NCBI RefSeq assembly: GCF_000832985.1
Contig: NZ_CP009920.1
Location: 3,280,501 to 3,344,500 of the forward strand
Direction: 5' to 3'
Source of the DNA: Priestia megaterium NBRC 15308 = ATCC 14581
GTDB taxonomy: Bacteria > Bacillota > Bacilli > Bacillales > Bacillaceae_H
DNA length: 64,000 nt
The notes beneath the pieces are model-generated. The model saw only the letters and a list, made by a program, of their open reading frames with translations, was not told the DNA's origin and made no database searches. Positions 25,267 to 42,391 of the stretch are shown piece by piece. The position numbers and the translations under genes were made by a program. How positions within the stretch are numbered: position 1 is the first letter of the stretch; the number at the start of each line of letters is the position of its first letter.

Positions 25267-25359
25267 TATCGATGTAGCAACTCTACCATCACGGAAGAGC
25301 AGTGATGGTAGAGTTGCTAGACCTATCCGGATGAGCCTTTGAGGGTATATTCGCAGGAG
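25267..25359 (+). repeat. Two-hairpin repeat element, copy A
   Basis: Starts with TATCGATGTAG, then a 15-bp perfect hairpin (CAACTCTACCATCAC and complement, 25278-25316). CTAGACCTA follows at 25317, then a reduced second segment, and the 3' box GAGCCTTTGAGGGTATATTC. It lies between the divergent sigma gene and the SGNH-like gene. Three relatives are at 33.6, 34.7 and 42.3 kb. Confidence 0.7.
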
Positions 25360-25371
25360 CTACTAATTTTG

Positions 25372-25416
25372 AGTTCTTCTTTATGAAAGCAAGCTGCTGA
25401 GATTGTAAGAAGAACT
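25372..25416 (+). promoter_or_regulatory. 10-bp stem in the leader of the second SGNH-like gene
   Basis: AGTTCTTCTT (25372-25381) pairs perfectly with AAGAAGAACT (25407-25416), ending four bases before the AAAGGGGAG ribosome binding site. It could limit translation or be a relic of a longer element. Confidence 0.45.
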
Positions 25417-25433
25417 TGTAAAGGGGAGATTGA

Positions 25434-26180
25434 ATGAAGGCGATGGTTGGGATAAATGTGGCGGCGGCTGTTTTGTGCGGGGCGGTGATGTATGCGGGGA
25501 CGCAGCACTGGCAGAAGCAAACGGAAGCGCAGGCAAGTGAAGTAAAAACTGCTGTTGTACATAAAGAAAAACAGTTTTCTGATGTATCTGCTTACACAAA
25601 AAATCTTCCGGACTTTATTACAAAGCAAATCCAGTCATCTATCGCAAATAAAAAGCCTCTGACTCTTGTGCTTGCCACATCCGCGAAGGAAGCAGGGTGG
25701 CCACAGCAGTTAAAAAAAGAGCTAGCAGCTACATATGGAAGTGATGTATTTACGGTTAAAACACTTTCATATGGTAACGGGACAACTGATAAGCTTTTAT
25801 CCTCACATATTGCCGATCAAATTGATCAACTTCAGCCAAACATTATTCTGTTTGAAGCACCTCTTAAAAATGATTATCAGCATCTTACGCTAGATGAGAC
25901 GCTTGAAAATACAGACAAGCTGATTCATCAGCTTAAAGACTTGAAAAAAACCCTTATGATTCAGCCTTCACAGCCTTACATTTCACAAACGGAGTCCTAT
26001 GAAGAAGGGGTAGAAGCGATCAGGGGAGTATCTGAAGCAAACTGGGTATATTATATGAATCACTCGCTCATTTGGCCCTTTCATTTAGGAGAATATATAA
26101 ATAAAGACAGCGGTAATTTAACGAAAAAAGGAAATGAAGTGTGGGGAGAGTACGTTGTGAATTGGTTTACAGGAGAATAA
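25434..26180 (+). CDS. Membrane-anchored SGNH/GDSL-like protein, second copy
   Basis: A 248-residue paralog of the protein at 12.5 kb, with the same layout: N-terminal signal anchor (about 5-22), short linker, then LTLVLATSAKEAG, IILFEAPLKND, IQPSQPY and the end block LTKKGNEVWGEY. The family His of the last block is replaced (the aligned stretch reads GNLTKKGN). The start is ATG 25434 after AAAGGGGAG. It stands alone behind repeat element A and ends in a strong terminator. An extracytoplasmic role on glycans is suggested only by the paralog's surroundings. Confidence 0.55.
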   Translation: MKAMVGINVAAAVLCGAVMYAGTQHWQKQTEAQASEVKTAVVHKEKQFSDVSAYTKNLPDFITKQIQSSIANKKPLTLVLATSAKEAGWPQQLKKELAATYGSDVFTVKTLSYGNGTTDKLLSSHIADQIDQLQPNIILFEAPLKNDYQHLTLDETLENTDKLIHQLKDLKKTLMIQPSQPYISQTESYEEGVEAIRGVSEANWVYYMNHSLIWPFHLGEYINKDSGNLTKKGNEVWGEYVVNWFTGE

Positions 26181-26222
26181 AAAGACAAGCCCTATTTAAA
26201 AAGGAATAGGGCTTGTCTTTTA
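26181..26222 (+). terminator. Strong terminator after the second SGNH-like gene
   Basis: AAAGACAAGCCCTATT (26181-26196) pairs perfectly with AATAGGGCTTGTCTTT (26205-26220). Confidence 0.9.
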
Positions 26223-26365
26223 TAATTTTATTAGATTATGACTTTTCCTCGTTTTATAGTAGTAGCTTTTTGTATCTCTACACTTATAAAGCTTAAAGCC
26301 AAAGATTTCTAAAGGAGTCCAAAGTTTTTTAATGTTTACGAGTGGCATTTTAATTCTCTGTTCTG

Positions 26366-26463
26366 TTCTTTATAAAGGTTATGTATTTTCATTATAAAGA
26401 ATATAGGAGTGATAGTAAATACTATAAAGAACAGTTTATCTAAAAAATTCTTTATAAAGAATT
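26366..26463. repeat. Four TATAAAG(A) repeats in the nasD upstream region
   Basis: TATAAAG recurs at 26371, 26393, 26423 and 26453, each inside a small palindrome such as CTTTATAAAG. The last is the centre of a 26-bp palindrome of A-, TTCTT- and T-runs (26445-26470). No gene is visible in 26223-26909, so this stretch is regulatory or silent. Confidence 0.45.
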
Positions 26464-26666
26464 TTTTGGGATTGTTATTTTTGACGTATATACATTTAGA
26501 ATTGCTTGGTCTGCGATACAGGCAATAATCAATTTACATATTGATGAAAAGATAGATGATAGATACTAACCAAAGTCTTTAGAACAAGACGATCAAACTA
26601 TCGCTCATTTTTAATAGGAGTGATTTTTATCATAGCTCAGGTTATTTATTCTTGCTAAATTAATGT

Positions 26667-26682
26667 TGTGAAAAAGATCACA
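26667..26682. promoter_or_regulatory. FNR-type box upstream of nasD
   Basis: TGTGAAAAAGATCACA is an exact TGTGA-N6-TCACA palindrome. Its centre lies at about 26674, so an FNR-activated start would fall near 26716, where TTAATT at 26705-26710 could act as the -10 box. Confidence 0.7.
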
Positions 26683-26847
26683 AAATAAAATGCAAAGGAT
26701 GATCTTAATTAAGACGTAGTGAGACTACTTATTTTTTTTTACTTGCTGTTAAAGCAATGGAATCGCATACATACCATAACTATGTTAGATAACCTAACAC
26801 ATAAGTTGAACGATTCAGAAAATTCATATATCTTAAATGTATCTTTA

Positions 26848-26870
26848 AAGATGCATAGAAAATATATCTT
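26848..26870. promoter_or_regulatory. NsrR-like inverted repeat before nasD
   Basis: The 23 bases start AAGATGCAT and end ATATATCTT, matching the recalled Bacillus NsrR consensus AAGATGYATTTTARATRCATCTT in 19 of 23 positions. It lies 40 bases before nasD. NsrR represses nasD in B. subtilis. Confidence 0.5.
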
Positions 26871-26909
26871 TGAAACAAGCAGGTATAGACGCCAGGGGAG
26901 GAATGGAAG

Positions 26910-29324
26910 ATGCAAAAAAAGAAACTCGTATTGATTGGAAATGGAATGGCTGGAGTTCGAGCGATTGAAGAAGTATTGAAGGTTTCAAACGAAGCGTTTG
27001 AAATTACGATTTTCGGAAGCGAGCCGCATCCGAACTATAATCGTATTTTACTATCAAAAGTGCTGCAAGGAGATACGAATGTTGAAGACATTACGCTAAA
27101 CGATTGGAACTGGTATCAAGAAAACAATATTACATTATATACGGGCGAAACGGTTACTAGTATCGATTCAGTGAAAAAAGAAGTAGCGACAAACAGCGGC
27201 AGAGTAGAATCGTATGATGAGTTGATTTTAGCAACGGGGTCTCTTCCTTTTATTCTTCCGATTCCAGGGTCTGATAAAAAAGGAGTTACGGCTTTTCGAG
27301 ATATAAAAGACACGGATGAAATGCTGCAAGCATCTCAGCAGTATAAAAAAGCAGCGGTTATTGGAGGCGGACTGCTTGGATTAGAAGCGGCGCGCGGACT
27401 GTTAAATCTAGGAATGGACGTATCTGTCATTCATTTAGCTCCGTATTTAATGGAACGTCAGCTTGATCCAACAGCGGGCAAATTGCTTCAAAACGAATTA
27501 GAAAAACAAGGCATGAAGTTTTTGCTTGAAAAACAAACGGCGGAAATCGTCGGCGATGAGCGAGTTGAAGGATTATCTTTTAAAGACGGTACGTTTTTAG
27601 AAGCCGATTTAGTCGTGATGGCCGTTGGAATTAAGCCAAATGTTCAGCTTGCAAAAGAAGCGGGACTTAACGTAAACCGAGGAATTGTTGTAAATGACTA
27701 TATGCAAACGGATATCCCAAACATCTACGCGGTTGGAGAATGTGCAGAGCATAGAGGAATGGTATATGGACTGGTAGCACCTTTGTATGAGCAAGGAAAA
27801 GCATTAGCAAAAGCGATTTGCGGGGCAGAAAAAGTGCCTTATGAAGGATCAGTTTTATCAACGCAGTTAAAAGTATCAGGTGTTGAAGTGTTTTCGGCAG
27901 GCGACTTCACGGAAGATGAAGAGAAAAAAGCGATCAAAGTGTTCGATGAACAAGACGGCATTTATAAAAAGCTTGTTTTGCGAGGCAATCAAATCGTAGG
28001 AGCCGTTCTTTTTGGAGACAGCAGCGACGGAAATCGACTGTTTTCAATGATACAAAAGCAAGAAGACGTATCGGATGTCGCAAAAGTGTCAATTTTACAG
28101 CCATCTGGCGGTAACGCGGGTGAAAGCTTAGTAGCAAGCATGAGCGCCGATGATATTATTTGCGGCTGTAACGGCGTAACAAAAGGTACGATTGTGGAAG
28201 CTATCCAAAAACAAGGATGCTCATCGGTTGATGAAATCAAAGCTTGTACAAGTGCCTCTCGCTCTTGCGGAGGATGTAAACCGCTTGTAGCGGAAGTGCT
28301 TCAGCATACTCTTGGCGCTGACTTTGACGCGGCAGCTCAAAAAGAAGCGATTTGCGGCTGTACGACTTTGTCACGAGATGAAGTTGTCGAAGAAATTAAA
28401 GCAAAAGGTCTTTCGCATACGCGTGAAGTTATGAATGTACTTGGGTGGAATAATGAAGAAGGCTGTTCGAAATGCCGTCCGGCGCTGAATTATTATTTAG
28501 GTATGGTGAATCCAACCGGATACGTTGATGAACGCGAATCACGATTTGTGAATGAACGCATGCACGCGAATATTCAAAAAGACGGCACGTATTCTGTTGT
28601 TCCTCGTATGTACGGAGGCGTCACAAATGCAGAAGATTTACGAAAAATTGCAGATGTTGTTGATAAATATGAAATTCCCCTCGTAAAAGTGACGGGTGGT
28701 CAGCGTCTTGACTTGTTTGGTGTTAAAAAAGAAGATTTGCCTAGCGTATGGGAAGAGTTAGATATGCCTTCTGGCTACGCGTACGGTAAGTCGCTGCGAA
28801 CGGTGAAAACATGCGTCGGCGAACAGTTTTGCCGTTTTGGAACGCAGGATTCAATGGGCGTTGGAATTGCGCTTGAGAAAAAATTTGAAGGACTATGGAC
28901 GCCTCATAAAGTGAAAATGGCTGTATCTGCTTGTCCGAGAAGCTGTGCTGAGTCAGGTATTAAAGATATTGGCTTTATTGGAATTGACGGCGGCTGGGAA
29001 ATTTACGTGGGCGGAAATGGAGGTACGCATCTTCGCGGCGGAGATTTGTTGTATAAAGTAAAAACAGACGAAGAATTGATGGACATCACAGGAGCGTATT
29101 TGCAGTATTACCGAGAAACGGCTAATTATTTAGAACGTACCTCTGCATGGATTGAGCGCATGGGACTTTCGCACATTCAATCAGTGCTTGATGACGCCCA
29201 GACGAGAAGAGAGCTGAATATGCGTATGGACGAAGCGTTATCTACGTACCGTGATCCTTGGAAAGAAATCGTCGAAAGCAAAAAGACGAAAAAAGAGCTG
29301 TTCGAAACAGTTGTCACATCATAA
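26910..29324 (+). CDS. nasD: Assimilatory nitrite reductase [NAD(P)H], large subunit
   Basis: An 804-residue enzyme reducing nitrite to ammonium with six electrons from NAD(P)H. The N-terminal half holds the FAD/NAD domains (GNGMAGVRAIEEV; VIGGGLLGLEAARGL; YAVGECAEHRG). Two BFD-type iron-sulfur blocks follow (CGCNGVTKG at about 417, then CGGC; and CGCTTLSRDEV at about 479). The siroheme/[4Fe-4S] domain carries TCVGEQFCRFG (about 633) and ACPRSCAESG (about 673). Start and GGGGAGG site agree. It leads an operon with nasE, sumT and an FNT transporter. Upstream FNR and NsrR-like sites suggest oxygen and NO control. Confidence 0.96.
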   Translation: MQKKKLVLIGNGMAGVRAIEEVLKVSNEAFEITIFGSEPHPNYNRILLSKVLQGDTNVEDITLNDWNWYQENNITLYTGETVTSIDSVKKEVATNSGRVESYDELILATGSLPFILPIPGSDKKGVTAFRDIKDTDEMLQASQQYKKAAVIGGGLLGLEAARGLLNLGMDVSVIHLAPYLMERQLDPTAGKLLQNELEKQGMKFLLEKQTAEIVGDERVEGLSFKDGTFLEADLVVMAVGIKPNVQLAKEAGLNVNRGIVVNDYMQTDIPNIYAVGECAEHRGMVYGLVAPLYEQGKALAKAICGAEKVPYEGSVLSTQLKVSGVEVFSAGDFTEDEEKKAIKVFDEQDGIYKKLVLRGNQIVGAVLFGDSSDGNRLFSMIQKQEDVSDVAKVSILQPSGGNAGESLVASMSADDIICGCNGVTKGTIVEAIQKQGCSSVDEIKACTSASRSCGGCKPLVAEVLQHTLGADFDAAAQKEAICGCTTLSRDEVVEEIKAKGLSHTREVMNVLGWNNEEGCSKCRPALNYYLGMVNPTGYVDERESRFVNERMHANIQKDGTYSVVPRMYGGVTNAEDLRKIADVVDKYEIPLVKVTGGQRLDLFGVKKEDLPSVWEELDMPSGYAYGKSLRTVKTCVGEQFCRFGTQDSMGVGIALEKKFEGLWTPHKVKMAVSACPRSCAESGIKDIGFIGIDGGWEIYVGGNGGTHLRGGDLLYKVKTDEELMDITGAYLQYYRETANYLERTSAWIERMGLSHIQSVLDDAQTRRELNMRMDEALSTYRDPWKEIVESKKTKKELFETVVTS

Positions 29325-29342
29325 TGCAGGGGGGAAATAAAG

Positions 29343-29669
29343 ATGGTGAATAAAAACATTACAAAAGTATGCGTGGGGTCTATTCATGATTTTCCGGTAA
29401 GCCTGGGTAAAACAGTGAAAGTAAACGGAAAAGAAATTGCGGTGTTTAAGCTATCAAGCGGAAAAATACGAGCAATTGAAAATCGCTGTCCGCATAAAGG
29501 CGGGGTGCTAAGTGAAGGAATCGTGAGCGGCGACTCGGTGTTCTGTCCGATGCACGACTGGAAAATTTGCCTGCATGACGGTAACGTACAAGAGCCAGAC
29601 AGCGGCTGTGTAGACACGTACGAAGCGTCTGTTGAAGGAGATTTGCTGTATCTTTTAATTGAAGAATAA
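29343..29669 (+). CDS. nasE: Nitrite reductase small subunit, Rieske type
   Basis: A 108-residue partner of NasD with a Rieske [2Fe-2S] fold. The ligands are in [12 protein letters not shown] and [13 protein letters not shown]. It begins 18 bases after nasD behind a GGGGGG-rich ribosome binding site and is certainly cotranscribed. It is needed for electron transfer or stability of the reductase. Confidence 0.95.
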
Positions 29670-29676
29670 GTAACGA

Positions 29677-29699
29677 GGCGCGTTGATTTTCAACGCGCC
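29677..29699 (+). other. Intergenic hairpin between nasE and sumT
   Basis: GGCGCGTTG (29677-29685) pairs with CAACGCGCC (29691-29699). There is no T-run, so it is more likely an mRNA processing or stability stem than a terminator. Confidence 0.55.
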
Positions 29700-29741
29700 A
29701 CAAAAATTCAAGGGGACATACTCAAAGGAGCGAAGCAGAAG

Positions 29742-30512
29742 ATGAGACAAGGAAAAGTGTACATTGTAGGAGCCGGACCAGGAGATCCAGATTTGCTAAC
29801 GATAAAAGCAGCAAAATGTTTAGAAAAAGCAGACGTTATTTTATATGACCGACTAGTGAACCCTGTTCTTCTTCAGTATGCAAAAGAAGGAGCCGAACTC
29901 GTCTACTGCGGGAAAAAGCCTGGTGATCACTGCGTTTCTCAAGATGATATTCATGATTTGCTTGTATACTACGCAAGAAAAGGAAACACCGTCGTGCGGT
30001 TAAAAGGCGGAGATCCGTTTATTTTCGGAAGAGGCGGGGAAGAAGCAGAAGTGCTCGTTCAAAACGGAATTTCGTTTGAAGTCGTTCCGGGTATTACAGC
30101 GGGCATCGCGGCACCTGCTTATGCTGGAATTCCTGTGACGCATCGTGAGCTGAGCCGTTCATTTGCCGTTGTGACGGGACACTGTTTAAGCGGCAAGCCG
30201 GAAAGTATTCGCTGGGAGCATTTAGCAAAAGGAGTTGATACGCTTGCGATTTATATGGGCGTTAAAAACTTGCCGTATATTTGCCGTCAGCTTTTAGACG
30301 CGGGAAAAAGCGCGGATACGCCGGTCGCTCTTATTGAACAAGGCACGACGGTTTATCAGCGCACGGTTACAGGCACGCTTGGCACAATCGTAGACACGGC
30401 TGCGGAGCAGCAAGTCAGCAACCCCGCGATGATTGTGATTGGTGAAGTGGTGAAGCAAGCTTCTGCTCTTTCCTGGTTTTTGGAAAAAACAGAAGAAAAA
30501 GTATGCGTCTAA
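29742..30512 (+). CDS. nasF: Uroporphyrinogen-III C-methyltransferase
   Basis: A 256-residue SUMT enzyme that makes precorrin-2 from uroporphyrinogen III for siroheme, the cofactor of NasD. SAM-binding landmarks are VGAGPGDPDLLTIKA at the N terminus, VVRLKGGDPFIFGRGGEE, VPGITAGIAAPAYAGIPVTHR and the C-terminal NPAMIVIGEVV. Placement in the nitrite operon matches B. subtilis nasF. The dehydrogenase/ferrochelatase steps are not encoded nearby. Confidence 0.93.
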   Translation: MRQGKVYIVGAGPGDPDLLTIKAAKCLEKADVILYDRLVNPVLLQYAKEGAELVYCGKKPGDHCVSQDDIHDLLVYYARKGNTVVRLKGGDPFIFGRGGEEAEVLVQNGISFEVVPGITAGIAAPAYAGIPVTHRELSRSFAVVTGHCLSGKPESIRWEHLAKGVDTLAIYMGVKNLPYICRQLLDAGKSADTPVALIEQGTTVYQRTVTGTLGTIVDTAAEQQVSNPAMIVIGEVVKQASALSWFLEKTEEKVCV

Positions 30513-30536
30513 GACGAATAAAAGGAGGAAACGCTT

Positions 30537-31373
30537 TTGCTTAAGAATTCACTGCAGTCAATGAATGAGTTAGCCCGTGAAAAAACGAAGCTTGTGAATG
30601 ATCATTTGCCGAGTTATTTGCTGTTAGCTGTGCTAGCGGGTGCTTACGTAGGACTGGGCGTTATATTAGCTCTATCGGTAGGAGCGCCTTTAGCTTCTGC
30701 TTCTTTACCGGTCGTTTCTCTTGTCATGGGATTATCTTTTGCTGTTGCTCTCCTGCTTGTCGTATTTGCAGGAGCTGAATTGTTTACGGGAAATCATATG
30801 GTTTATACAGTCAGTACGCTATCGGGAGTCACCACATGGAAAGATACGTTCAAAAACTGGACGTGGTGTTTTATCGGAAATGCGATAGGTGCGTTTGGAC
30901 TTTGTTTGTTAATTACCGGAACCGGTTTGTTTAAAGGAATTGAACCGAACCATTTACTTATGACGCTGGCAGCTAAAAAAATGAATTTGCCGGTCAGTGA
31001 ATTATTTTTTCGCGGCATTCTTTGCAACTGGCTTGTTTGTCTTGCGATTTGGACGGCTGCGCGCACTAAAAGCGATGCGGCAAAGATCATGCTCATTTTT
31101 TGGATGCTGTTTGCATTTGTTGCATCAGGATACGAGCACAGCGTGGCAAATATGACGTTTCTTGGCCTAGCTTTATTGCTTCCGCATCCTGATGCGATTT
31201 CGGCTGCTGGACTATTTCATAATTTAATTCCTGTTACGCTCGGAAACATCGTAGGGGGAGGATTGTTTGTAGGAAGCATTTACTGGTTCGTGAACGCTAG
31301 ACAGCTAAAAGAAGCTAAAAAGCAGCCGGCTGCTCTCTCAGCTGACTTGGATTCTGTTAAACTGTCTAAATAG
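30537..31373 (+). CDS. Formate/nitrite transporter (FNT) family channel
   Basis: A 278-residue protein with six hydrophobic segments typical of the FocA/NirC family. FAGAELFTGNH and the helix-breaking block around FRGILCNWLVCLA are diagnostic, and ASGYEHSVANM is the second conserved helix break. It begins with TTG 30537 after AAAGGAGG, 24 bases after sumT. As the last gene of the nitrite operon it most likely imports nitrite or exports excess nitrite (NirC-like). Formate remains possible. Confidence 0.9.
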   Translation: MLKNSLQSMNELAREKTKLVNDHLPSYLLLAVLAGAYVGLGVILALSVGAPLASASLPVVSLVMGLSFAVALLLVVFAGAELFTGNHMVYTVSTLSGVTTWKDTFKNWTWCFIGNAIGAFGLCLLITGTGLFKGIEPNHLLMTLAAKKMNLPVSELFFRGILCNWLVCLAIWTAARTKSDAAKIMLIFWMLFAFVASGYEHSVANMTFLGLALLLPHPDAISAAGLFHNLIPVTLGNIVGGGLFVGSIYWFVNARQLKEAKKQPAALSADLDSVKLSK

Positions 31374-31374
31374 C

Positions 31375-31445
31375 AAAAAACCGCTCTTTGTACCATATAG
31401 TCTGCTTTTAAAGCTAACATAACGGTATTTTAGAGCGGTTTTCTT
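31375..31445 (+). terminator. Terminator of the nitrite operon
   Basis: AAAAAACCGCTCT and AGAGCGGTTTTCTTC pair across a long, partly structured loop. Confidence 0.65.
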
Positions 31446-31589
31446 CTATATAATATAAACTGCTTAAAGCGTATTCACATCTATACGTATCGAACAAGCA
31501 GTATCGTTCTTCATTTTATAGAAACAGGAAGTCTGTGAGAATTGAATCCGGACAGATTCTGTTGAAATGAATGTGTGAGGGTGCAGATA

Positions 31590-31916
31590 TCATCGAAGAG
31601 GCAGAGGGCATCTTAGAATTTTAATGTTGTTTGGCATTTTATGCTCTTTTTGAGCATCCTTAAAGCAGTTGTACATTGCTTTGCTGCCTAAATGATTAGC
31701 GGAGTGAATCGTAATTCGATCGGCATATAAATGATGCTTTACCATAAAATGCACGAGCATTAATCCATTCCGTGTCTTGCTGAGTAAATCGTGATCGAGC
31801 GACAAATGTTCAACATCGAATGACCTTAGCAGATCAATACATTCGTCAATCGTTTCGGCTAAAACATGACCGTCAGGGCACTTGCGATAGTCGTCTAGAA
31901 AAACATTGATTTTCAT
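31590..31916 (-). CDS. Cyclic-phosphate processing receiver-domain protein (cREC)
   Basis: A 108-residue stand-alone domain resembling the cREC receiver-like family: VFLDDYRKCPDGHVLAETI at the N terminus, LSLDHDLLSKTRNGLMLV in the middle and ITIHSANHLGSKAM toward the end. The acidic DD and DHD residues take the place of a receiver's phosphoacceptor pocket. Family members are proposed to sense or process cyclic-phosphate or nucleotide signals in conflict systems. Here it stands alone, with no nuclease or effector beside it. Function is unknown. Confidence 0.65.
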   Translation of the reverse strand: MKINVFLDDYRKCPDGHVLAETIDECIDLLRSFDVEHLSLDHDLLSKTRNGLMLVHFMVKHHLYADRITIHSANHLGSKAMYNCFKDAQKEHKMPNNIKILRCPLPLR

Positions 31917-32275
31917 GACTGATTCTCCCTTCCTTGCCTTGTATTTAGTGTAACATACATAATGTCATATACCTACCTAAGTCTATTCGACACGTTTTAA
32001 GCTATTCCTTCTTAAATAGGGGTAAAAACACGAATTTTTATCATTATTTGCATATTCATGGCGAATAAACAGGAAATAAGGAAAGAGATGTCGAACGAAA
32101 AATGAATAGATAAACAGTTTAAACTGGAAATTAACTTTTTTTATTCTGTGATCTTTATTTAAGAAGGTCATTTAAATCCCAGATTTGACAAGGGATGGAA
32201 GGGGGCTAACCCATAAAAGATTGTGAGAAAAAAACGATAATTTACGATTTTTTTAAAATAAATTGGAAATTTCTC
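31917..32275. other. Intergenic stretch without a recognisable gene
   Basis: AT-rich, with no frame preceded by a ribosome binding site and no long stem. A TTGACA at about 32184 lacks a paired -10 box. Confidence 0.45.
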
Positions 32276-33349: not shown

Positions 33350-33373
33350 AATGAAAAGGCTTTATCTCTTCTT

Positions 33374-33562: not shown

Positions 33563-33577
33563 ATGAAAACGTTATAT
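33563..33577. promoter_or_regulatory. cre-like site upstream of glcU
   Basis: ATGAAAACGTTATAT agrees with the CcpA consensus except for A at the conserved C near the 3' end. It directly precedes repeat element B. Confidence 0.35.
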
Positions 33578-33580
33578 ATT

Positions 33581-33711
33581 TATCGATGTAGAACATTTAA
33601 TAGGACTAAAGAGCGATCCTATCAAATTTTCTAGACCTAAGCGGTTGCTGCCCCCCTTGTGGGGTAGGCATCATCCGCATAAGTGGACCTTTGGGGGAAT
33701 ATTCGAGGGAG
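33581..33711 (+). repeat. Two-hairpin repeat element, copy B
   Basis: TATCGATGTAG opens it, then an imperfect hairpin (AATAGGA with TCCTATC and the outer TAGAA/TTCTA). CTAGACCTAA follows at 33631, then a second stem GCGG/CCGC with CCCCCCTTGTGGGG at its top, and the 3' box GGACCTTTGGGGGAATATTC. It lies 99 bases before glcU, in a position to form its 5' leader. Confidence 0.7.
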
Positions 33712-34673: not shown

Positions 34674-34686
34674 TTTATCCTTAATT

Positions 34687-34792
34687 TATCGATGTAGAAA
34701 AAACCTCATGGCTAAAGTGCAGCCATGAGGTTTTTTCTAGAACTATGGTTTTGAGGCCACCCCTTGCGGGATGGCCTCAAAACCGTAGTTAA
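34687..34792 (+). repeat. Two-hairpin repeat element, copy C, acting as glcU terminator
   Basis: TATCGATGTAG is followed by a perfect hairpin (AAAAAACCTCATGGC and complement, 34698-34736) ending in a T-run, then CTAGAACTA. A second strong stem follows (AACTATGGTTTTGAGGCCA, 34741-34759, with a near-complement at 34772-34790) and carries CCCCTTGCGGGA at its top. The 3' box of copies A, B and D is missing. It lies 14 bases after glcU. Confidence 0.7.
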
Positions 34793-34959
34793 GGTCAAAA
34801 CCGTAGTCAAAACCAAACCTATAGTGCTCTTCTGAATTTCAAAGCTGTATGTTCCTGTTGGGGGTTCTCGTTCTTAAGGCTGATTGTTTTTCATTCTTTG
34901 TTAGGAAGCTGTTTGGTGTGAGATGGCTTATAGTAGTAGAAAAGGATGGAGGGAAGGCT

Positions 34960-35418
34960 ATGATTAAGAGTATTTATGAGACGCATGTGCATGTGCGGAG
35001 TTTGGAGGATTCGATTGAATTTTATAGACGTCTTGGGCTGACGTTTGTTCATAAAATTGAAGAGAGGCGCTGTGCTTTTTTCTTTGTTGGGGAACAAAAG
35101 CAGATGCTTGGACTTTGGGAAACCGATGAAAAAGAGTTGAAAAGTAGTCATTTTGCTTTTGGAATTGAAGCAGCAGATATTCATGAAGCGTTAACGTGGC
35201 TGCGTTCAAAAGGCATTGAACCGGAAGAGACGTCGTTTGGAAAGCCCCAAACAGAGCCGATTGTTCATACGTGGATGCCAGCGGCTTGCGTTTATTTTAA
35301 TGACCCTGACGGCAACCGCTTGGAGTTGATTACGCTTTTGAATGATAAGCCCGTTATATCTAAGGATTTTCCTTATTTAAGTGAATGGAATAAAGAAACC
35401 GGGACGAAATTATTTTAG
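34960..35418 (+). CDS. VOC (glyoxalase/bleomycin-resistance) family protein
   Basis: A 152-residue protein of the vicinal oxygen chelate superfamily. The first half has YETHVHVRSLEDSIEFYRRLGL and the second half has CVYFNDPDGNRLELITLL with the family Glu ligand; FGIEAADIHEALTWL links them. The start is ATG 34960 behind GGAGGG. A longer frame reaching 34849 runs through non-coding DNA and is rejected. Substrate is unknown; candidates include fosfomycin-type or lactoylglutathione-like lyases. It stands alone with its own terminator. Confidence 0.82.
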   Translation: MIKSIYETHVHVRSLEDSIEFYRRLGLTFVHKIEERRCAFFFVGEQKQMLGLWETDEKELKSSHFAFGIEAADIHEALTWLRSKGIEPEETSFGKPQTEPIVHTWMPAACVYFNDPDGNRLELITLLNDKPVISKDFPYLSEWNKETGTKLF

Positions 35419-35426
35419 CTCAAGTG

Positions 35427-35474
35427 AAAAACGCACCATTGATCAACGTGTTTGATTAGCGGTGCGTTTTTTTT
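35427..35474 (+). terminator. Terminator after the VOC gene
   Basis: AAAAACGCACC (35427-35437) and GGTGCGTTTTT (35461-35471), with an inner TTGATCAA-type stem, then T residues. Confidence 0.85.
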
Positions 35475-35644
35475 GTTATGGTTAACGTAGGTTTGATCTG
35501 TTTTGTTCCTTCTAGCAGTTGATTGGAGTCATTTCGTTATGTCTCCATCTTTTTATGTATCATAAACGTAGAATTGACATATTTATAAACATATAATATA
35601 TTTGTTTATAAATTAATAAACAAAATAGAAAGGTGTCTATTTAT

Positions 35645-36778
35645 ATGGTAAACGATTTGTTTTGGGAATCATCTTTTGAAGAGATGAAGAAAGGGTACGG
35701 GGAAAGCGAAGATCACTACCACTGCTTACTGTGCGGTGAAAACATTGAAAAAGGCATTATTTATCCGGTGGAAGGTGTTTTTTATGAAGCAAAACGCTAT
35801 ATGAAGCTTCATGTGGAACAGCAGCACGGGTCTGTATTCCATCATTTAATAGGGCTAGATAAAGAGGTAACGGGTCTTTCTGATCATCAAAAAAATTTAG
35901 TGAAGTTTTTTAAGGAAGGAAAAAGTGACAGCGATATTCAAAAAGAAATGGGAATTGGCAGTTCATCGACCATTCGAAACCACCGCTTTACGTTAAAGAA
36001 AAAAGAGCGTCAGGCCAAAGTGTTTTTAACGCTGATGGAACTGTTGAACGACGGAGAAGAAGAGAAGAAGCTACCGGCATCCACTGCAGCGCCTAGAAGA
36101 AGTCAGCGCTACAGCATCAGTGATGAAGAGCGTGAAAAAATTTTAGCGAAGAACTTTCCGCAAGGTTTAAACGGACCTCTTCGCACCTTTCACTTGCAAG
36201 AGAAACACCGTCTTGTTGTTCTTGAAGAATTAAGCGGACATTTTGAGTTTGGCAGCACGTATACCGAAAAAGAAGTGAACGATAGGTTAACACCTTTTTA
36301 TGACGACTACGCCGTGCTGCGACGCTATTTAATTGAATACGGTTTCTTAGAGCGCAGCGCAGACGGAAGCAGCTACTGGAGAAAAGGAGAGACAGAGATG
36401 AGTATGGACTCAAAAGACTATAAAAAACAAATGAAGCAGCTAGCGAAAGAAGTAAAAACAGAAGGCGGCGTGTATCAAATTAAAAACCTTCACAACGATA
36501 AGATTTACATTGGCTCTACGCCTAACATCAAAACGTTAAACGGCGTAAAGTTCACGTTAAAGACGAATACTCATCAAAATAAAGAGCTTCAAAACGAGTG
36601 GAATACGTACGGGGCGGATGCTTTTTCAATTGAGATGCTGGAAACGATTAAAAGAGAAGAAGAAAAAGCACTTTCAAAAAAGGATTTGCTGAAACTGGAA
36701 GCGAAATGGTTAGAGAAGCTGCAGCCTTACGGCGAAAAAGGCTATCATTCGCCGAAAGCTGATACAAAGGAGAAATAG
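35645..36778 (+). CDS. Zinc-finger/HTH/DUF2087/GIY-YIG multidomain protein
   Basis: A 377-residue protein with four recognisable parts. Near residues 20-65 is a CLLCGEN...HVEQQH zinc-finger-like pair. Around 75-120 is a LuxR-like helix-turn-helix (VKFFKEGKSDSDIQKEMGI). About 160-245 is DUF2087 (LAKNFPQGLNGPLRTFHLQE ending in SSYWRKGE). The C-terminal 100 residues are GIY-YIG-like (GGVYQIKNLHNDKIYIGSTP with a late EAKWLEKL Glu). It suggests a DNA-binding regulator fused to a nuclease fold, though the full GIY-YIG catalytic set cannot be confirmed by eye. The start at 35645 follows AAAGGTG. The MATE gene follows after two bases. Confidence 0.75.
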   Translation: MVNDLFWESSFEEMKKGYGESEDHYHCLLCGENIEKGIIYPVEGVFYEAKRYMKLHVEQQHGSVFHHLIGLDKEVTGLSDHQKNLVKFFKEGKSDSDIQKEMGIGSSSTIRNHRFTLKKKERQAKVFLTLMELLNDGEEEKKLPASTAAPRRSQRYSISDEEREKILAKNFPQGLNGPLRTFHLQEKHRLVVLEELSGHFEFGSTYTEKEVNDRLTPFYDDYAVLRRYLIEYGFLERSADGSSYWRKGETEMSMDSKDYKKQMKQLAKEVKTEGGVYQIKNLHNDKIYIGSTPNIKTLNGVKFTLKTNTHQNKELQNEWNTYGADAFSIEMLETIKREEEKALSKKDLLKLEAKWLEKLQPYGEKGYHSPKADTKEK

Positions 36779-36780
36779 GT

Positions 36781-38163
36781 GTGAAGAATCAAGATGTTAA
36801 AAGTGAAGTAGTGGAATCAGAAAAATCCGTCAGTAAGCTGATGCTTGTGTTTTTGATTCCGCTCATGTTAAGTAACGCCATGCAGTCAGTTGGGCAGCTG
36901 GCGGGAAGTATTATTGTCGGAAGAGCGCTTGGAGTTGATGCGTTAGCCGCTATTTCTGCTTTTTTTCCTCTGTTTTTTCTGCTCGTGTCGTTTTCGATTG
37001 GAATTGGTTCAGGAAGTTCCATTTTAATCGGGCAAGCGTACGGGGCACAAAACGAAAAACGAGTCAAAGAAATTATCGGTACCACGCTCACGTTTACATT
37101 TCTAGTCGGAATTGTGCTTGCTGTTTTGGGAAGCATATTTGCTCCGGATATTCTTCGGATTATGGGAACGCCGGCTAATATTATTGACGTAACGGTTCAC
37201 TACGCGCGCATTTTGTTTGTGGCGATTCCTGTTTTGTTTTTATACTTTGTTTATACGACGTTTATGCGCGGAACCGGAGACTCTAAAACGCCTTTTTACT
37301 TTTTAGTTGTGAGTACGGTCTTAAACATCATTTTTCTTCCGATTTTAATTTTTGGATGGATCGGAGTGCCAAAGCTTGGAGTGTACGGCGCTGCGTATGC
37401 AACGGTGTTTTCAACCGTATTAACGTTCATTATTATGATTATCTATTTACGCAAGAAAAATCATCCGTTGAAGTTTGACTCATCTATTTCATTAAAAATG
37501 GACGGAACGCTTTTAAAGCTGCTTATGCGTTTAGGGATTCCAGCGAGTATCAATATGATTTTAGTTTCTCTTTCTGAAATTGCGGTTATTACGTTTGTGA
37601 ACGGATTTGGCTCAGACGCTACAGCAGCGTACGGAGCGGTGAACCAAGTGGCAAGCTATGTACAAATGCCGGCAATCAGCTTAGGAATTGCGGTTTCTAT
37701 TTTTGCGGCGCAGTCGATTGGCGCCAATAAATTTGAGCGTTTAAAAGAAGTTATTCGCTCTGGAATTATGCTGAATTACGTTATTGGCAGCGTATTGATT
37801 TTACTTATTTATCTCTTTTCCAATCAAATTTTAGCTCTGTTTTTAACAAGTCAGCATACGCTCCGTATTGCCGAAGAGCTGTTAGTGATCACGCTTTGGA
37901 GCTATTTGATTTTCGGTCATGCGCAAATTATTACCGCCACGATGCGAGCAAGCGGTACGGTGCTTTGGCCTACGGTATTTAGTATTATGGCTATTTGGTG
38001 TGTAGAAGTGCCCGTAGCCTACGTGCTGTCGCAGTTTACGTCTCTTGAAATTAAAGGGATTTGGATTGGGTATCCAGCGGCGTTTGTGGTTAGCTTAATC
38101 CTGCAGTACAGCTATTATCAATTTGTATGGAAGAAAAAGAAAATTGAACGCCTTGTCGGATGA
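36781..38163 (+). CDS. MATE-family multidrug efflux transporter
   Basis: A 460-residue transporter with twelve predicted membrane helices in two similar halves. Typical parts are LSNAMQSVGQLAGSIIVGRAL, SGSSILIGQAYGAQNEKRVKE and FMRGTGDSKTPFYF in the N half, and YGAVNQVASYVQMPAISLGIA in the C half. It likely exports cationic drugs or metabolites by sodium or proton antiport. It starts GTG 36781, six bases after AAAGGAG inside the end of the GIY-YIG gene, so the two are cotranscribed. Substrate is unknown. Confidence 0.9.
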   Translation: MKNQDVKSEVVESEKSVSKLMLVFLIPLMLSNAMQSVGQLAGSIIVGRALGVDALAAISAFFPLFFLLVSFSIGIGSGSSILIGQAYGAQNEKRVKEIIGTTLTFTFLVGIVLAVLGSIFAPDILRIMGTPANIIDVTVHYARILFVAIPVLFLYFVYTTFMRGTGDSKTPFYFLVVSTVLNIIFLPILIFGWIGVPKLGVYGAAYATVFSTVLTFIIMIIYLRKKNHPLKFDSSISLKMDGTLLKLLMRLGIPASINMILVSLSEIAVITFVNGFGSDATAAYGAVNQVASYVQMPAISLGIAVSIFAAQSIGANKFERLKEVIRSGIMLNYVIGSVLILLIYLFSNQILALFLTSQHTLRIAEELLVITLWSYLIFGHAQIITATMRASGTVLWPTVFSIMAIWCVEVPVAYVLSQFTSLEIKGIWIGYPAAFVVSLILQYSYYQFVWKKKKIERLVG

Positions 38164-38190
38164 AAAACGAGTGGAAACGCTCGTTTTTTA
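38163..38190 (+). terminator. Terminator after the MATE gene
   Basis: AAAAACGAG (38163-38171) and CTCGTTTTT (38180-38188), then T/A. Confidence 0.75.
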
Positions 38191-38273
38191 TTTTTCCTAA
38201 TTAAAACACCCTTAGCTAAAAGTTTTAATAGGATAGTGCATATAACTTTTTGATGAAAAGAGGGTATGACACT

Positions 38274-38939
38274 ATGAGTAAATCTGGATTTGTGCCGGAT
38301 AATTCAAATATTAAAAAAAGCTCAGGAACGCCTAATCTGTCAGTGAACTATAAGCAAAACGTCCTGTTCAAACGAAATGACCAAAATATAGCGTATCAGC
38401 TAACCTCAACTCAGCTGCCTGCCATGCTCGGAGGTGCGTTTGTTGATTTATATATGACGAAAGGGCATATGAGAGAACCGCACTGGCATCCAAACGCGTG
38501 GGAATTAGATGTCGTCGTTTCAGGTGAAGTGCAGGTGTCTGTCTTAGACCCTGATACAAGCAGCATGCACAATTACCGAATAAAAGAAGGCGAAGTTGTT
38601 TTTATACCGATGGGCTGGTGGCATTGGATTGAACCGCTATCGGAAGAAGCGCATCTGCATCTCTTTTTTAACAATGATCAATTTGAGTCTACAGAAGGAT
38701 CCGACGTGCTGCGCTTAACGCCTCCTGTTGTGTTTCAAAAAGCGTATGGAGTAAGTGCAAGCGAAGTAGCAGAAGCCATTGCTCCGATTACGGATACGGT
38801 TATCATTGGGCCGCCTGAGAGTAAGCAATACTATAAGATGAAACAAGCAAATGAGTATAAAAGTGATGGAAATGATGAAAGAATTATCGTCAAAATTAAC
38901 GAGAAAATACTTGCTTCTGAAGAGGGGCAAGATGTGTAA
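38274..38939 (+). CDS. Cupin-domain protein (oxalate decarboxylase-like single cupin)
   Basis: A 221-residue single cupin. The metal-binding first motif is in REPHWHPNAWELDVVVSGE (two His and Glu), and the second is FIPMGWWHWIEP. This layout is that of the OxdC/germin-like bicupins, but only one cupin domain is present and the C tail (about 60 residues) is unlike them. The start is ATG 38274 after AAGAGGG; a TTG frame eight codons earlier is rejected. Possible roles are a manganese enzyme or a spore-coat-type protein. Substrate is unknown. Confidence 0.75.
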   Translation: MSKSGFVPDNSNIKKSSGTPNLSVNYKQNVLFKRNDQNIAYQLTSTQLPAMLGGAFVDLYMTKGHMREPHWHPNAWELDVVVSGEVQVSVLDPDTSSMHNYRIKEGEVVFIPMGWWHWIEPLSEEAHLHLFFNNDQFESTEGSDVLRLTPPVVFQKAYGVSASEVAEAIAPITDTVIIGPPESKQYYKMKQANEYKSDGNDERIIVKINEKILASEEGQDV

Positions 38940-39351
38940 GGATTTTTTTAAATGAGTTTAACGGAAATTCTGCTTTACCTCTATATCTTTACTTCCGAGC
39001 CAAATAAATTGGCTCAAGAAATCAAGTAAACAAACCTATGACTTATCATAGGTAAGAAACATCACGATCATGGTATCTTTGATTAATCTACTATATGACT
39101 AGGTTTGACTATTTGTATAATACACAAACCTAGTTTATTTAACCAGAATTATCAGTAGTTAATTTGGTTAAAATTCTATAAAAATAGCGTTTTGAGGGAA
39201 TTTTCCAACACCAAAAATTCTCTGTGAAAGGTATACGCTTAGGTAGATTTGCATGTTTTTAAGTTAGTAGATAATTTGTCCAAGAGCTTGTCAAAACCCT
39301 GCATATACTAGTATTGGCAATTAAATATCTAGTAGGAGTGGAGTATAGTAT
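38940..39351. other. Intergenic stretch with two hairpins
   Basis: No gene is visible. GAGCCAA/TTGGCTC forms a small stem at 38997-39015. ACTAGGTTTG (39098-39107) pairs with CAAACCTAGT (39125-39134), followed by TTATTT, and may be the cupin-gene terminator. Confidence 0.45.
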
Positions 39352-40698
39352 ATGGGATTAACACATCTAACAGGGCGAGTAATCTTTAAGGGTGATCCTG
39401 GTTATAAAGAGGCAGTTAAGAACTGGAACCCTTATGTTGATGTCTTTCCTCTTGTCTTTGTTTTTGCACAAAATTCATATGATATTAGTAATGCTATTAA
39501 ATGGGCTCGTGAGAATAATATACCCTTGCGCGTCAGAAGTGGTCGTCATGCTCTCGATAAGAACCTTTCAGTAGTAAATGGAGGGCTTGTTATTGATGTG
39601 AGCGACATGAATAAAGTTCACTTAGATAAAAAAAATGCAATTGCCACTGTTCAAACTGGAGTGCACGTAGGCCCGCTTGTAAAAGGTTTGGCTCGAGAAG
39701 GTTTTATGGCGCCGTTTGGGGATAGCCCAACTGTTGGAATCGGAGGAATTACGATGGGAGGAGGATTTGGCGTACTCTCACGGTCGATTGGCCTTATAAG
39801 CGATAACCTTGTCGGCTTGAAAATGGTAGATGCACATGGCAGGATTATTGAAGCAAATAAATTTTGCAATGAAGATTTATTTTGGGCATCTAGAGGCGGT
39901 GGAGGCGGTAACTTTGGATATAATACTCAATACGCGTTTCAAGTTCGTCGTGCACCTAAAACCGCAACCGTTTTCAACATTATTTGGCCATGGGAACAGC
40001 TAGAAGCGGTATTTAAAACGTGGCAGAATTGGGCCCCGTTTGTAGACTCACGACTAGGATGCATCCTCGAGATTTTCAGCAAAGTAAATGGTCTGTGTCA
40101 TGCAGAAGGTATCTTTTTGGGTTCAAAAAAGGAGCTAATTCAATTATTAGAGCCTTTAACAAATACAGGTACTCCATCACAAATCGTGATAGAAACATTA
40201 CCTTATCCAGATGCTATAGATTTCTTAGACCCTGACGAACCAATCCCTGGCAGATCGGATCAAAGCGTTAAATTTTCCTCATCATGGGGACTTGATTTAT
40301 GGCCGGAAGAGCCCATTTCAATTATGAAGAAATTCTTGGAAGAAGCTCCCGGTACAGAATCCAACTTCTTTTTTATAAATTGGGGCGGTGCGATCAGTAA
40401 AGTACCAAGCCACAAAACAGCCTTTTTCTGGCGCAGCCCCTTGTTTTATACTGAATGGACTGCTAGTTGGGAAAAGAAATCACAAGAAGCTGCTAGCCTT
40501 GCATCAGTTGAAAAAGTACGTCAGATGATGAAGCCTTATGTAACAGGTTCATATGTTAATGTTCCTGACCAAAATATTGAAAATTTCGGAAAAGCCTATT
40601 ATGGATCAAACTTTTCAAGGCTTCGAGAGGTAAAGGCGAAATATGATCCGGAAAATTTATTTCGTTTTCCGCAAAGCATACCGCCATCATCATGCTGA
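39352..40698 (+). CDS. FAD-linked oxidase, berberine-bridge type (CotQ/YvdP-like)
   Basis: A 448-residue oxidoreductase with an N-terminal PCMH FAD domain and a C-terminal BBE segment (YYGSNFSRLREVKAKYDPENLF). VRSGRHALDKN holds the His for covalent flavin linkage. The second linkage Cys of bicovalent relatives is Ser here (FGDSPTVGIGG), so flavin is probably held by one bond. GGGFGVLSRSIGL binds the cofactor. B. subtilis CotQ (YvdP) is a spore-coat member; whether this one is coat-associated is inference. It has a GGAGTGGAG site and stands alone. Confidence 0.85.
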   Translation: MGLTHLTGRVIFKGDPGYKEAVKNWNPYVDVFPLVFVFAQNSYDISNAIKWARENNIPLRVRSGRHALDKNLSVVNGGLVIDVSDMNKVHLDKKNAIATVQTGVHVGPLVKGLAREGFMAPFGDSPTVGIGGITMGGGFGVLSRSIGLISDNLVGLKMVDAHGRIIEANKFCNEDLFWASRGGGGGNFGYNTQYAFQVRRAPKTATVFNIIWPWEQLEAVFKTWQNWAPFVDSRLGCILEIFSKVNGLCHAEGIFLGSKKELIQLLEPLTNTGTPSQIVIETLPYPDAIDFLDPDEPIPGRSDQSVKFSSSWGLDLWPEEPISIMKKFLEEAPGTESNFFFINWGGAISKVPSHKTAFFWRSPLFYTEWTASWEKKSQEAASLASVEKVRQMMKPYVTGSYVNVPDQNIENFGKAYYGSNFSRLREVKAKYDPENLFRFPQSIPPSSC

Positions 40699-40734
40699 AG
40701 TTTTTATTCATTAAATAAGATCTCTTAGGGTTGG

Positions 40735-40785
40735 AACTGACCTTTGATTGGTAAGCCGCATCTATCAATCGAAGGTCAGTTTTTA
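40735..40785 (+). terminator. Terminator after the FAD oxidase gene
   Basis: AACTGACCTTTGATTG (40735-40750) pairs with CAATCGAAGGTCAGTT (40766-40781) with one wobble, then T residues. Confidence 0.85.
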
Positions 40786-40891
40786 TATAGAAAAATCACA
40801 TTCTCTATAAGTTAGCAAAAATCAAAAAGGATTTAATTATGCATCTACATATAACTCATACGCAATAATCGCAGGAATCAATCTCCTGCGG

Positions 40892-41722
40892 TTATAAAAA
40901 CAGCTCCTTGCGTTCTAAGTGCTTATACAGCCGCGTTGTGACTTGTTTTTGATTCCATTCGTTTTGCGGAAACTGCTGCTTGTCTACGTGAGCAACGGCC
41001 GGTTTGTAGGTTTTTTGAATCCGTTTGATATCATTAAAGGGTGCATTGGTTTCAATGTGATCAGCGAGCGTAAATACAAGAGAATGCAGCTTTGCAACAT
41101 TGGGAATCGTAGCTGCTTGGCTGAAAATGGCTTTTGCTACAGACAGCTGCCTTTCATGGGCAGTAAAGATGTCTTGCTCATTACGCTCCTTTAAATAAAC
41201 AAGCGCTTCTTTTCCGGTAAGGCGAATTGATCCTTTTGGAAAAACAATGTTGCTGTGTTCAAAAGCACGTTTGTTTGTGACGATAATGCCGCCTAATTTA
41301 TTTACAGCATCGACGACTGACTGCTGATCCATTTTGACATAATAATCAACAGGAAGCTTTGCATACGTTTCGACGTTCTTTACGACAGCATTCATATTTC
41401 CTCGATGATAAATGGTTCGCAGTGTTTCATTGCCGAGCTGAGTTGACCCTGGCAAGTGGGTCATTTTTATTGATTCATGCTGTTTATTAACAGTCATATA
41501 TACAAATGACGTATTTTGATGGTTCTCTTGAATTAAAAGCAGGGAAAACGGTTGCCCTTTTTTTAAATTGACGTGTGTTTTGTTCCCATGCTCAAGCGGT
41601 ACATACGTTTGATCAACGGCAGCTTTCACCGTATGATAGCCTGCAAATGTGATGCTGACAAAACTGACGAGTAAAAATAGTACGAGACCGCCAATCCACT
41701 CTTTTTTTGCTTTGCTGCTCAT
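40892..41722 (-). CDS. LCP-family paralog with altered catalytic residues
   Basis: A 276-residue membrane-anchored LCP-like protein (helix about residues 12-32). It keeps structural blocks such as LPVDYYVKMDQQSVVDAVNKLGG and IRLTGKEALVYLKER. The lipid-pyrophosphate site is changed: where the intact LCP at 11.4 kb has LLLGVDQR, RSDST and SIPRDTR, this one has LLLIQENHQ, NTSFV and HLPGSTQ, with a deletion between. Only the later ERQ block survives. It may be a non-catalytic partner. The start is ATG 41722 after AAAAAGGTGA. The PilZ gene lies just upstream on the same strand. Confidence 0.8.
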   Translation of the reverse strand: MSSKAKKEWIGGLVLFLLVSFVSITFAGYHTVKAAVDQTYVPLEHGNKTHVNLKKGQPFSLLLIQENHQNTSFVYMTVNKQHESIKMTHLPGSTQLGNETLRTIYHRGNMNAVVKNVETYAKLPVDYYVKMDQQSVVDAVNKLGGIIVTNKRAFEHSNIVFPKGSIRLTGKEALVYLKERNEQDIFTAHERQLSVAKAIFSQAATIPNVAKLHSLVFTLADHIETNAPFNDIKRIQKTYKPAVAHVDKQQFPQNEWNQKQVTTRLYKHLERKELFL

Positions 41723-41798
41723 CGTCTCACCTTTTTCTATCGAAGTCGTTCGTAGTATTGCCATCTTAAAAGGGGAGTAAAACAAATGAGCGCTATTT

Positions 41799-42170
41799 TT
41801 ATTGCTTATCTTGCTTTTTCTTGGCGTAGGTTTTGAGCTCTGTAATTAAAATCGCTTGTTCTTCCGCATCGTTAAATGCTTCAATGCCATAAAGGTATTC
41901 GGTGTGCCGTTTTTCTTTCCACACGCAAAGTCCGGTAATATGAATGGGTTTTTCATTTAAATAAAAGCTGATTTTTAGCTGAATTTGATGGTTGAAAATA
42001 GGTAAATCAAGCGGCGTAATTATTTTGATTCCTTTTGGTGAAAGGTCGATAACGGACAAAGGACGTGGCTTAGAATCGATTTCTTTGTTGTCGTATTTAG
42101 CAATGGAAAACGTTCCAACAATGGGAGTCTCAAATAAAAAGCGAAACGGTTCTTCACGTTTAAAATGCAT
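41799..42170 (-). CDS. PilZ-domain protein (candidate c-di-GMP receptor)
   Basis: A 123-residue protein consisting of one PilZ domain. The RxxxR-like motif is near the N terminus (FKREEPFRF), and the second motif DLSPKGIKI fits D/NxSxxG. VWKEKRHTEYLYGIEAF is the typical late strand pair. PilZ domains bind cyclic di-GMP and control motility or polymer export. It lies 76 bases upstream of the degenerate LCP gene on the same strand, which suggests a link between c-di-GMP and cell-wall glycopolymers. Start and AAAGGAC site agree. Confidence 0.8.
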   Translation of the reverse strand: MHFKREEPFRFLFETPIVGTFSIAKYDNKEIDSKPRPLSVIDLSPKGIKIITPLDLPIFNHQIQLKISFYLNEKPIHITGLCVWKEKRHTEYLYGIEAFNDAEEQAILITELKTYAKKKQDKQ

Positions 42171-42259
42171 GTATCATCAGTCCTTTTCGTAATCTAAGTT
42201 TGTTAAGTAAGTATTCGATGAAAGTCCAAAAATTCCTACACGTTTTTCCCCATCACACA

Positions 42260-42265
42260 TATAAT
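42260..42265 (+). promoter_or_regulatory. -10 box at the 5' edge of repeat element D
   Basis: TATAAT ends three bases before the element opens, so transcription would begin at or in its first box. No good -35 hexamer is visible. Confidence 0.45.
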
Positions 42266-42268
42266 GTT

Positions 42269-42391
42269 TATCGGTGTAGAAAATCTACCATGGCCGGTCT
42301 TTGGCCATGGTAGATTTTCTAGACCTAATCGTAGGCGATCCCCCTTGGCTGATCGTCTACGATTAGGTGAACCTTTGCGGGAGGATTCAAG
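42269..42391 (+). repeat. Two-hairpin repeat element, copy D
   Basis: TATCGGTGTAG is followed by a long perfect hairpin (AAAATCTACCATGGCC and complement, 42280-42318). CTAGACCTAA (42319) leads into a second stem, CCTAATCGTAG with CTACGATTAGG, that has CCCCTTG in its loop. The 3' box is GAACCTTTGCGGGAGGATTC. It is the most complete copy and lies upstream of the corA leader. Confidence 0.75.

Follow-up and report, generated by a model that had tools for sequence, protein, structure and literature searches.

Four intergenic copies (A to D) of a two-hairpin element lie within a 64,000-nucleotide (nt) stretch of the Priestia megaterium NBRC 15308 = ATCC 14581 chromosome (NZ_CP009920.1, positions 3,280,501 to 3,344,500; hereafter the window). 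They raise the question of whether hairpin arms that differ between copies, each paired with its own complement, reflect selection on a structured RNA or can arise in a DNA repeat in the absence of such selection. The analysis points to a non-autonomous mobile DNA repeat, resembling bcr1, repetitive extragenic palindromes (REPs) and hairpin-containing miniature inverted-repeat transposable elements (MITEs), whose arms are kept complementary by template switching; we consider this the probable explanation. The element has a modelled length of ~135 nt in the P. megaterium group and of ~200 nt in P. abyssalis. It is dispersed and, as far as searched, restricted to one family. P. abyssalis has near-identical copies at unrelated places, and megaterium-like species differ in whether a given site carries the element.

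All elements follow one order: TATCG(A/G)TGTAG, a long hairpin 1, CTAGACCTA (CTAGAACTA in copy C) and, in the 3' half, a hairpin 2 with CCCCTTG at its top (copies B, C and D) followed by (G/A)CCTTTGNGGG (copies A, B and D). The conserved boxes are ATCGATGTAG, CTAGACCTA and CCTTTGNGGG. The only mismatch-free occurrences of TATCGRTGTAG in the window are at 25267, 33581, 34687 and 42269, and the boxes and hairpins lie where the initial annotation had placed them, with covariance-model scores of 73-123 bits that are not independent, as A to D are among the 22 copies used to build the model. RNA folding of the window copies was far better than that of shuffled sequences for A (z = -5.1), C (z = -10.5) and D (z = -9.2), and weak for B (z = -1.8, with 9 of 200 shuffles equally good). 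Some details need correction: A has lost hairpin 2, which its orthologs in four other species retain, and C has no CCTTTGNGGG box. Likewise, the arms were said to differ completely between copies while remaining paired. The pairing holds, while copies A and D have the hairpin 1 arm sequence TCTACCAT in common and the stem of B is imperfect.

The evidence for template switching comes from the way hairpin 1 stems change between orthologs in five megaterium-like genomes (G000, the window genome, and G002, G006, G007 and G008). Stems were counted at seven loci (A-F and H); the whole of locus G and the D copy in G006 were excluded for their different stem length. Among 133 stem columns, 97 were invariant, 28 showed at least two Watson-Crick pairs, and 8 had changed on one arm only. 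Transversions are required in 18 of the 28 two-arm columns, and such changes offer no G.U intermediate; a mismatched state was also seen in 4 of the 28. The stems were perfect in 20 of 30 cases, and the mismatched states comprised five of G.U type, five of A.C type and three others. In addition, the hairpin 1 loop is inverted at three of the seven loci: D (in the window), F (in G000 and G006) and H (in G007). Two close comparisons illustrate these changes. The nearest flanks of window copy D and the D copy of plasmid pPmC-129-3 differ at 13 of 800 nt, and between the two copies one stem pair reads T-A in one and A-T in the other, the hairpin 1 loop has the opposite orientation, and hairpin 2 has different arms. 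At locus F, the left 600 nt are 99.7% alike between G000 and G006, yet an A-T to C-G change has occurred on both arms.

Together, two-arm changes, transversions and inverted loops form a signature of template switching in DNA replication. Template switching between arms has been described in ribosomal RNA (rRNA) and microRNA genes (PMC8794818), and arm homogenisation with spacer inversion by the same process has been described for inverted repeats in yeast coding sequence, in a source that also mentions a transversion preference in bacterial data (PMC8604942). The hairpin arms of the Priestia element seem, from these sequence comparisons, to have been copied from each other during DNA replication. 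The step from covariation to selection on structure, as taken in the initial annotation, is weakened, because template switching yields the same pattern without selection and accounts for the two-arm changes, the transversions and the inverted loops alike. As the arms were apparently copied from each other, covariation is not by itself proof of RNA function.

In order to follow the element beyond the window, 22 copies were aligned (alignment A2, from which a truncated copy in L017 and two duplicates of copy C, L016 and L018, were omitted) and used to build a covariance model of 135 positions. The search of the genome and its relatives that had been proposed at the outset yielded more copies in both. 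At E<=0.01, 13 matches marked 10 places in G000, namely A-D, three more strong places (2420332, 1699226 and 3170581 on C6) and three weak, uninspected ones. At the same threshold, 12 of 16 family genomes matched, with 0 to at least 145 matches per genome; scoring covered up to 150 candidates in each genome, which makes the large counts lower bounds, and some matches are the opposite strand of the same copy. Across the order, 11 of 397 genomes matched (E<=1e-5, stricter filters), every one of them in the same family. A strict two-box pattern was found at 22 places in 6 of 61 genomes, and in G000 at three places that all fall within the window; copy C was missed through its box variant. A contig-wide pattern scan returned six stretches, from Priestia aryabhattai and P. 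abyssalis, in a scan that possibly omitted records near the window's genome. Copies also lie a few hundred bases to ~2 kb apart, some on the same strand, in L118, L124 and L116 (G005) and in L107 (G011), so the clustering of A-D is not unique to the window.

Further comparison drew on regions around the best-scoring matches, which supplied 77 copies from P. abyssalis (G011; of at least 145) and 26 from its congener G014 (of at least 76) and therefore form a biased sample; dropping overlapping opposite-strand matches left a final set of 164 of 168 copies, which shifts totals by one or two and leaves every conclusion as it was. In G011 and G014, the element is ~200 nt long; many copies begin after CTATATAG and run ~65 nt past the model, up to a GAGTTATTAAGTGGAATATATAG-like sequence. 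The P. abyssalis copies begin after TATATAG-like sequence. Among 77 long matches in G011 (76 without one that overlaps), the most alike pair shows 99.0% identity over ~195 nt, with flanks at 47% and 40%, i.e. unrelated. An identical hairpin 1 with the same three mismatches was found in both G011 and G014. P. abyssalis also holds a second subfamily (L089:2062-2198, L104:1501-1637 and L113:2471-2607), which has different ends (ATCCACATAA ... TTTACGCATAAGCGG) and has hairpin 2 and the 3' box in common with the main element. The copy at L076:15723-15859 combines both subfamily kinds, from which it appears that parts have been exchanged between subfamilies.

Presence and absence could be compared behind a glucosamine-6-phosphate isomerase-type gene, where G002 carries a full copy, G008 a shortened one, and G000, G006 and G007 the identical uninterrupted sequence TTTAATTTATAGCC. 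In G008, the end of the isomerase-type gene is fused to the element, whose own TAG terminates the gene (judged by eye). Insertion is a likelier origin of this pattern than a precise deletion that would have to affect three species. Dispersal, near-identical copies in unrelated flanks and this polymorphic site fit the mobile palindromic repeat that had been one of the options raised initially. The L149 locus was rejected as a fresh insertion, since the other four species carry shortened copies there, and at L151 the other genomes align only downstream of the element. At locus F, L146 and L154 (two of five species) hold additional sequence, well over 100 nt long, that includes another, degenerate version of hairpin 2 and appears to be a nested duplication.

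The boxes and arms have diverged very differently. Between orthologs, 20 box positions differ at 3.6% of compared sites and the arms at 14.8%. For copies from different loci, the figures are 7.3% for the boxes and 50.5% for the arms; low box divergence with high arm divergence indicates that the boxes are held and the arms are free. On the simplest reading, the boxes would serve movement or processing, and the arms would supply only pairing and length. Mechanistically, ATCGATGTAG, CTAGACCTA and CCTTTGNGGG may be recognised by an enzyme that is encoded elsewhere and acts in trans; this enzyme would read the hairpins by shape and length and so leave arm sequences free to drift. DNA polymerase would occasionally copy one arm from the other, so that both arms change in one step, and this switching would sometimes invert the hairpin loop; the ortholog comparisons support these last two steps well. 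Copies at same-strand stop codons would join the 3' end of the messenger RNA (mRNA). As a tentative extension that we hold possible and no more, the family would be a shape-recognised mobile element with self-renewing stems and fixed pairing, length and boxes, which at stop codons acts as a portable module of the 3' untranslated region (3'-UTR).

Placement was scored for matches of at least 95 nt that had a called gene on either side, genes being called mechanically with a minimum of 90 codons. Altogether, 114 copies were placed in G011, G014, G005 and two g4 genomes, 71 of them behind a same-strand gene. In 17 of these 71 cases, the reading frame of the gene extends a few codons into the element; among the other 54, 30 copies start -3 to +10 nt from the stop codon, against 8.1 expected from a uniform intergenic spread. 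Where the gene behind the copy is divergent, just 1 of 43 copies lay within 10 nt of that gene; where the downstream gene is convergent, 4 of 42 were near its stop. Across all genomes, the 46 adjacent stops were TAA (39), TGA (4) and TAG (3), and copies at a same-strand stop codon make up about two fifths of those examined. This adjacency could stem from a target preference, from purging of harmful insertions or from a useful role at the mRNA 3' end. The conserved boxes and the stop-codon placement are likelier functional signals than the covariation.

The last of these origins underlies the best-surviving rival, a cis-acting 3'-UTR element that spread by mobility and was then kept, in which hairpin 1, lying directly past the stop codon, would slow translation termination or protect the mRNA end. 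It draws on the orientation-specific stop adjacency, on the presence of loci A-G in four or five of the five megaterium-like species, and on the precedent of E. coli REPs within 15 nt of stop codons, given as 446 of 4,072, and as 260 of 496 in an older study, for which an mRNA 3'-end role has been proposed (PMC12306157). Purged insertions or a TAA-like target could also produce the adjacency, however, and window copies A, B and D do not adjoin a same-strand stop. We regard this explanation as unlikely.

Several observations weigh against a mobile repeat renewed by template switching. The 49 ortholog comparisons kept after the same exclusions contain 40 one-arm differences beside 91 two-arm ones. 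One-arm changes occur mainly at loci B and E, and in three of six comparisons at locus B they are the more numerous kind. In P. abyssalis, the most frequent form of hairpin 1 retains three mismatches unrepaired. Most megaterium copies examined are common to four or five of five species, which also fits a retained function, and no clear target-site duplication is definable at the element copies. The stop excess is weaker in the megaterium group (3 of 4 against 2.3 in G000; 13 of 16 against 5.9 in the others, which are not independent), where copies are orthologous and intergenic spaces short. Finally, the Y1 transposase domain (Y1_Tnp) gave 21 matches in 6 of 16 family genomes and none in G000, G002, G006, G007 or G008; no copy lay in 20 of the 21 Y1_Tnp loci or around the 21st (L198), with ~15 kb covered around four.

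With copies showing no linkage to Y1 genes, a Y1 or REP-associated tyrosine transposase (RAYT) was rejected as the mover. RAYT-like genes are apparent from our reading of the sequences in G012, G014 and G015, with a short frame in G011; the RAYT-like Y1 gene of L180 (G014) stands directly behind what we take to be a comM-like gene. A search confined to Y1-type partners found no larger element with the same ends. Phage or virus origin was set aside, as no exact pattern match occurred in viral contigs and blastn of one copy against phages gave no match. Among 72,556 plasmid records searched by distant blastn with two element copies, only one plasmid matched, from P. megaterium, and spread by plasmids was rejected because its inspected copy lies in the same gene block as copy D. 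This 116-kb plasmid (L228, NZ_CP069400.1, 33640-41795) carries the PilZ - element D - corA block as on the window chromosome. Integron attC sites, whose arms are variable yet paired, were set aside by reasoning alone, since the copies are spread singly.

Taken alone, the covariation would suggest selection at the RNA level, either on a small RNA that acts in trans or on a class of structured RNAs, in which compensatory selection maintains stem pairing. In the 22-copy alignment, standard pairs fill 92.3% of pair cells, 29 of 41 pairs have changed on both sides, and the covariation score is 0.496 compared with 0.138 in shuffles, 0 of 500 of which reach it. Hairpin 1 plus boxes spans a constant 58 nt in 22 of 22 strict matches, and a promoter-like site ending at 33580 stands directly before copy B; promoter-like sites in the region number 33 against 41.2 in shuffles, so there is no excess. 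Mismatches counted over 147 of 152 copies show no general preference for G.U over A.C (62 vs 132, and 5 vs 5 in the orthologs). By genome group, G.U prevails in G005 and g4 (23 vs 2), A.C in G011 and G014 (122 vs 28), and the megaterium group has 11 G.U and 8 A.C. Since mismatches are partly inherited, these counts are not independent, and testing for RNA selection through an excess of G.U gave mixed results between genome groups. The initial impression that the consensus is no known riboswitch was supported by comparison with Rfam: no family exceeded its gathering cut-off in the window, and the 14 matches at E<=10 within 25200-42500 all fell below it, on which basis a riboswitch or other known RNA was rejected. 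With the transversional two-arm changes and inverted loops also speaking against it, we judge an RNA class of this kind very unlikely.

The weakest alternative, that mobility ended long ago and the remaining differences are neutral decay, agrees with most examined megaterium copies being common to four or five species, with the loss of hairpin 2 from copy A and with the reduction of locus B to a remnant in G006, and is contradicted by the 99% identical P. abyssalis copies and the presence/absence polymorphism, which leave it the least probable of all.

Returning to the preferred reading of a mobile repeat with template-switched arms, the features of the window are collected in the table below. 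Copy B is flanked by genes for a PfkB-type carbohydrate kinase (32342-33349) and a sugar transporter (33810-34673), and copy D by a divergent gene with a PilZ domain and a gene for a CorA-type transporter (all by Pfam). According to the list of open reading frames, the model match of copy C starts 10 positions past the final base of the sugar transporter stop codon. On its 3' side (34780-34820), the unit TCAAAACCGTAG is repeated, with a similar repeated unit in G002, which suggests slippage after hairpin 2. The sugar transporter gene has a relative at L137:6859-7735 with ~68-77% DNA identity, the two lying near loci B/C and G, respectively.

Table 1. Element copies, hairpins and the uninterrupted site in the window (model scores of copies A-D are not independent)
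Feature	Position	Strand	Description	Model score (bits)
Copy A	25263..25359	+	complete hairpin 1; deletion of hairpin 2; 3' box retained at ~25333-25352	73.0
Hairpin 1 stem-loop, copy A	25275..25319	+	inverted repeat, fold	
Copy B	33577..33711	+	hairpins 1 and 2, 3' box ~33685-33704	122.9
Hairpin 1 stem-loop, copy B	33589..33633	+	stem imperfect; fold	
Copy C	34683..34815	+	hairpins 1 and 2, without standard 3' box	112.4
Hairpin 1 stem-loop, copy C	34695..34739	+	fold, inverted repeat	
Copy D	42265..42395	+	hairpins 1 (loop inverted) and 2, 3' box ~42369-42388	114.8
Hairpin 1 stem-loop, copy D	42277..42321	+	loop inverted relative to G002, G007, G008 and plasmid pPmC-129-3	
Hairpin 2, copy D	42323..42368	+	inverted repeat	
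Empty (uninterrupted) site	51026..51033	-	after stop of glucosamine-6-phosphate isomerase-type gene (51033-51809, minus strand; Pfam)	

Of all sequence evidence for functional RNAs, covariation is regarded as the strongest; here an entire repeat family displays textbook covariation in a pattern that instead fits copying of DNA. If the tentative extension given above is true, such a family would naturally record template switching in bacteria and would call for caution wherever RNAs are discovered through covariation. As many copies occupy the same sites in close species, template switching becomes measurable in bacteria. In addition, Priestia, a biotechnology host, gains a repeat family of its own, often at gene 3' ends.

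In kind, this is a family-restricted mobile palindromic repeat of a known type, undescribed as far as searched, and the evidence is clear that DNA copying produced much of its covariation; among the open-literature matches listed, none was, by title or abstract start, a paper on this Priestia repeat. Among the closest known systems are the bcr repeats of the Bacillus cereus group. Reportedly, bcr1 has a double-hairpin fold with compensatory changes over ~155 bp. Compared by description only in the case of bcr1, the Priestia element resembles bcr1-bcr3 (group A) as a group-restricted intergenic repeat, bcr repeats being an intergenic class of 100-400 bp found in one Bacillaceae group and often in UTRs (PMC6542083, PMC3446304). 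The ends of bcr1 carry one or more TTTAT repetitions (PMC6542083). TTTAT-like sequence lies to the left of window copies B, C and D and at the uninterrupted site; unlike in bcr1, there is none at the element's right end. The sole plasmid match was to Priestia, among plasmid records whose B. cereus-group share is uncounted, and an exosporium-leader marker for the B. cereus group was found in 0 of 199 order genomes, as in the control genomes.

A second comparison is with REPs and bacterial interspersed mosaic elements (BIMEs) with RAYT (TnpA_REP); REPs are marked by a GTAG tag (PMC3733652). In the megaterium group, the Priestia element is a palindrome with a GTAG foot, GTAG standing there in 22 of 22 A2 copies, and many copies of the element lie near stops, as those of REPs do. 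It differs in that the foot in P. abyssalis is GTAG in only 3 of 71 copies (TTAG in 35, ATAA in 12, CTAG in 11), in having two unlike hairpins and a 3' box, and in the pairing of the TAG of the GTAG foot with CTA; no Y1_Tnp match was found in the five megaterium-like genomes, and elsewhere Y1 genes are not beside copies. Hairpin MITEs derived from IS200/IS605 (PATE-like) carry hairpins within a small non-autonomous element and show no clear target duplication. The Priestia element, small, non-autonomous in our reading, with internal hairpins and no clear target duplication, is similar to these, and differs in that no autonomous partner with its ends was found among Y1-type partners. Finally, its stems share arm homogenisation and spacer inversion with template-switch mutations; whereas these were reported from rRNA and microRNA genes and from yeast repeats, we propose here a repeated action of the same process on a dispersed bacterial family.

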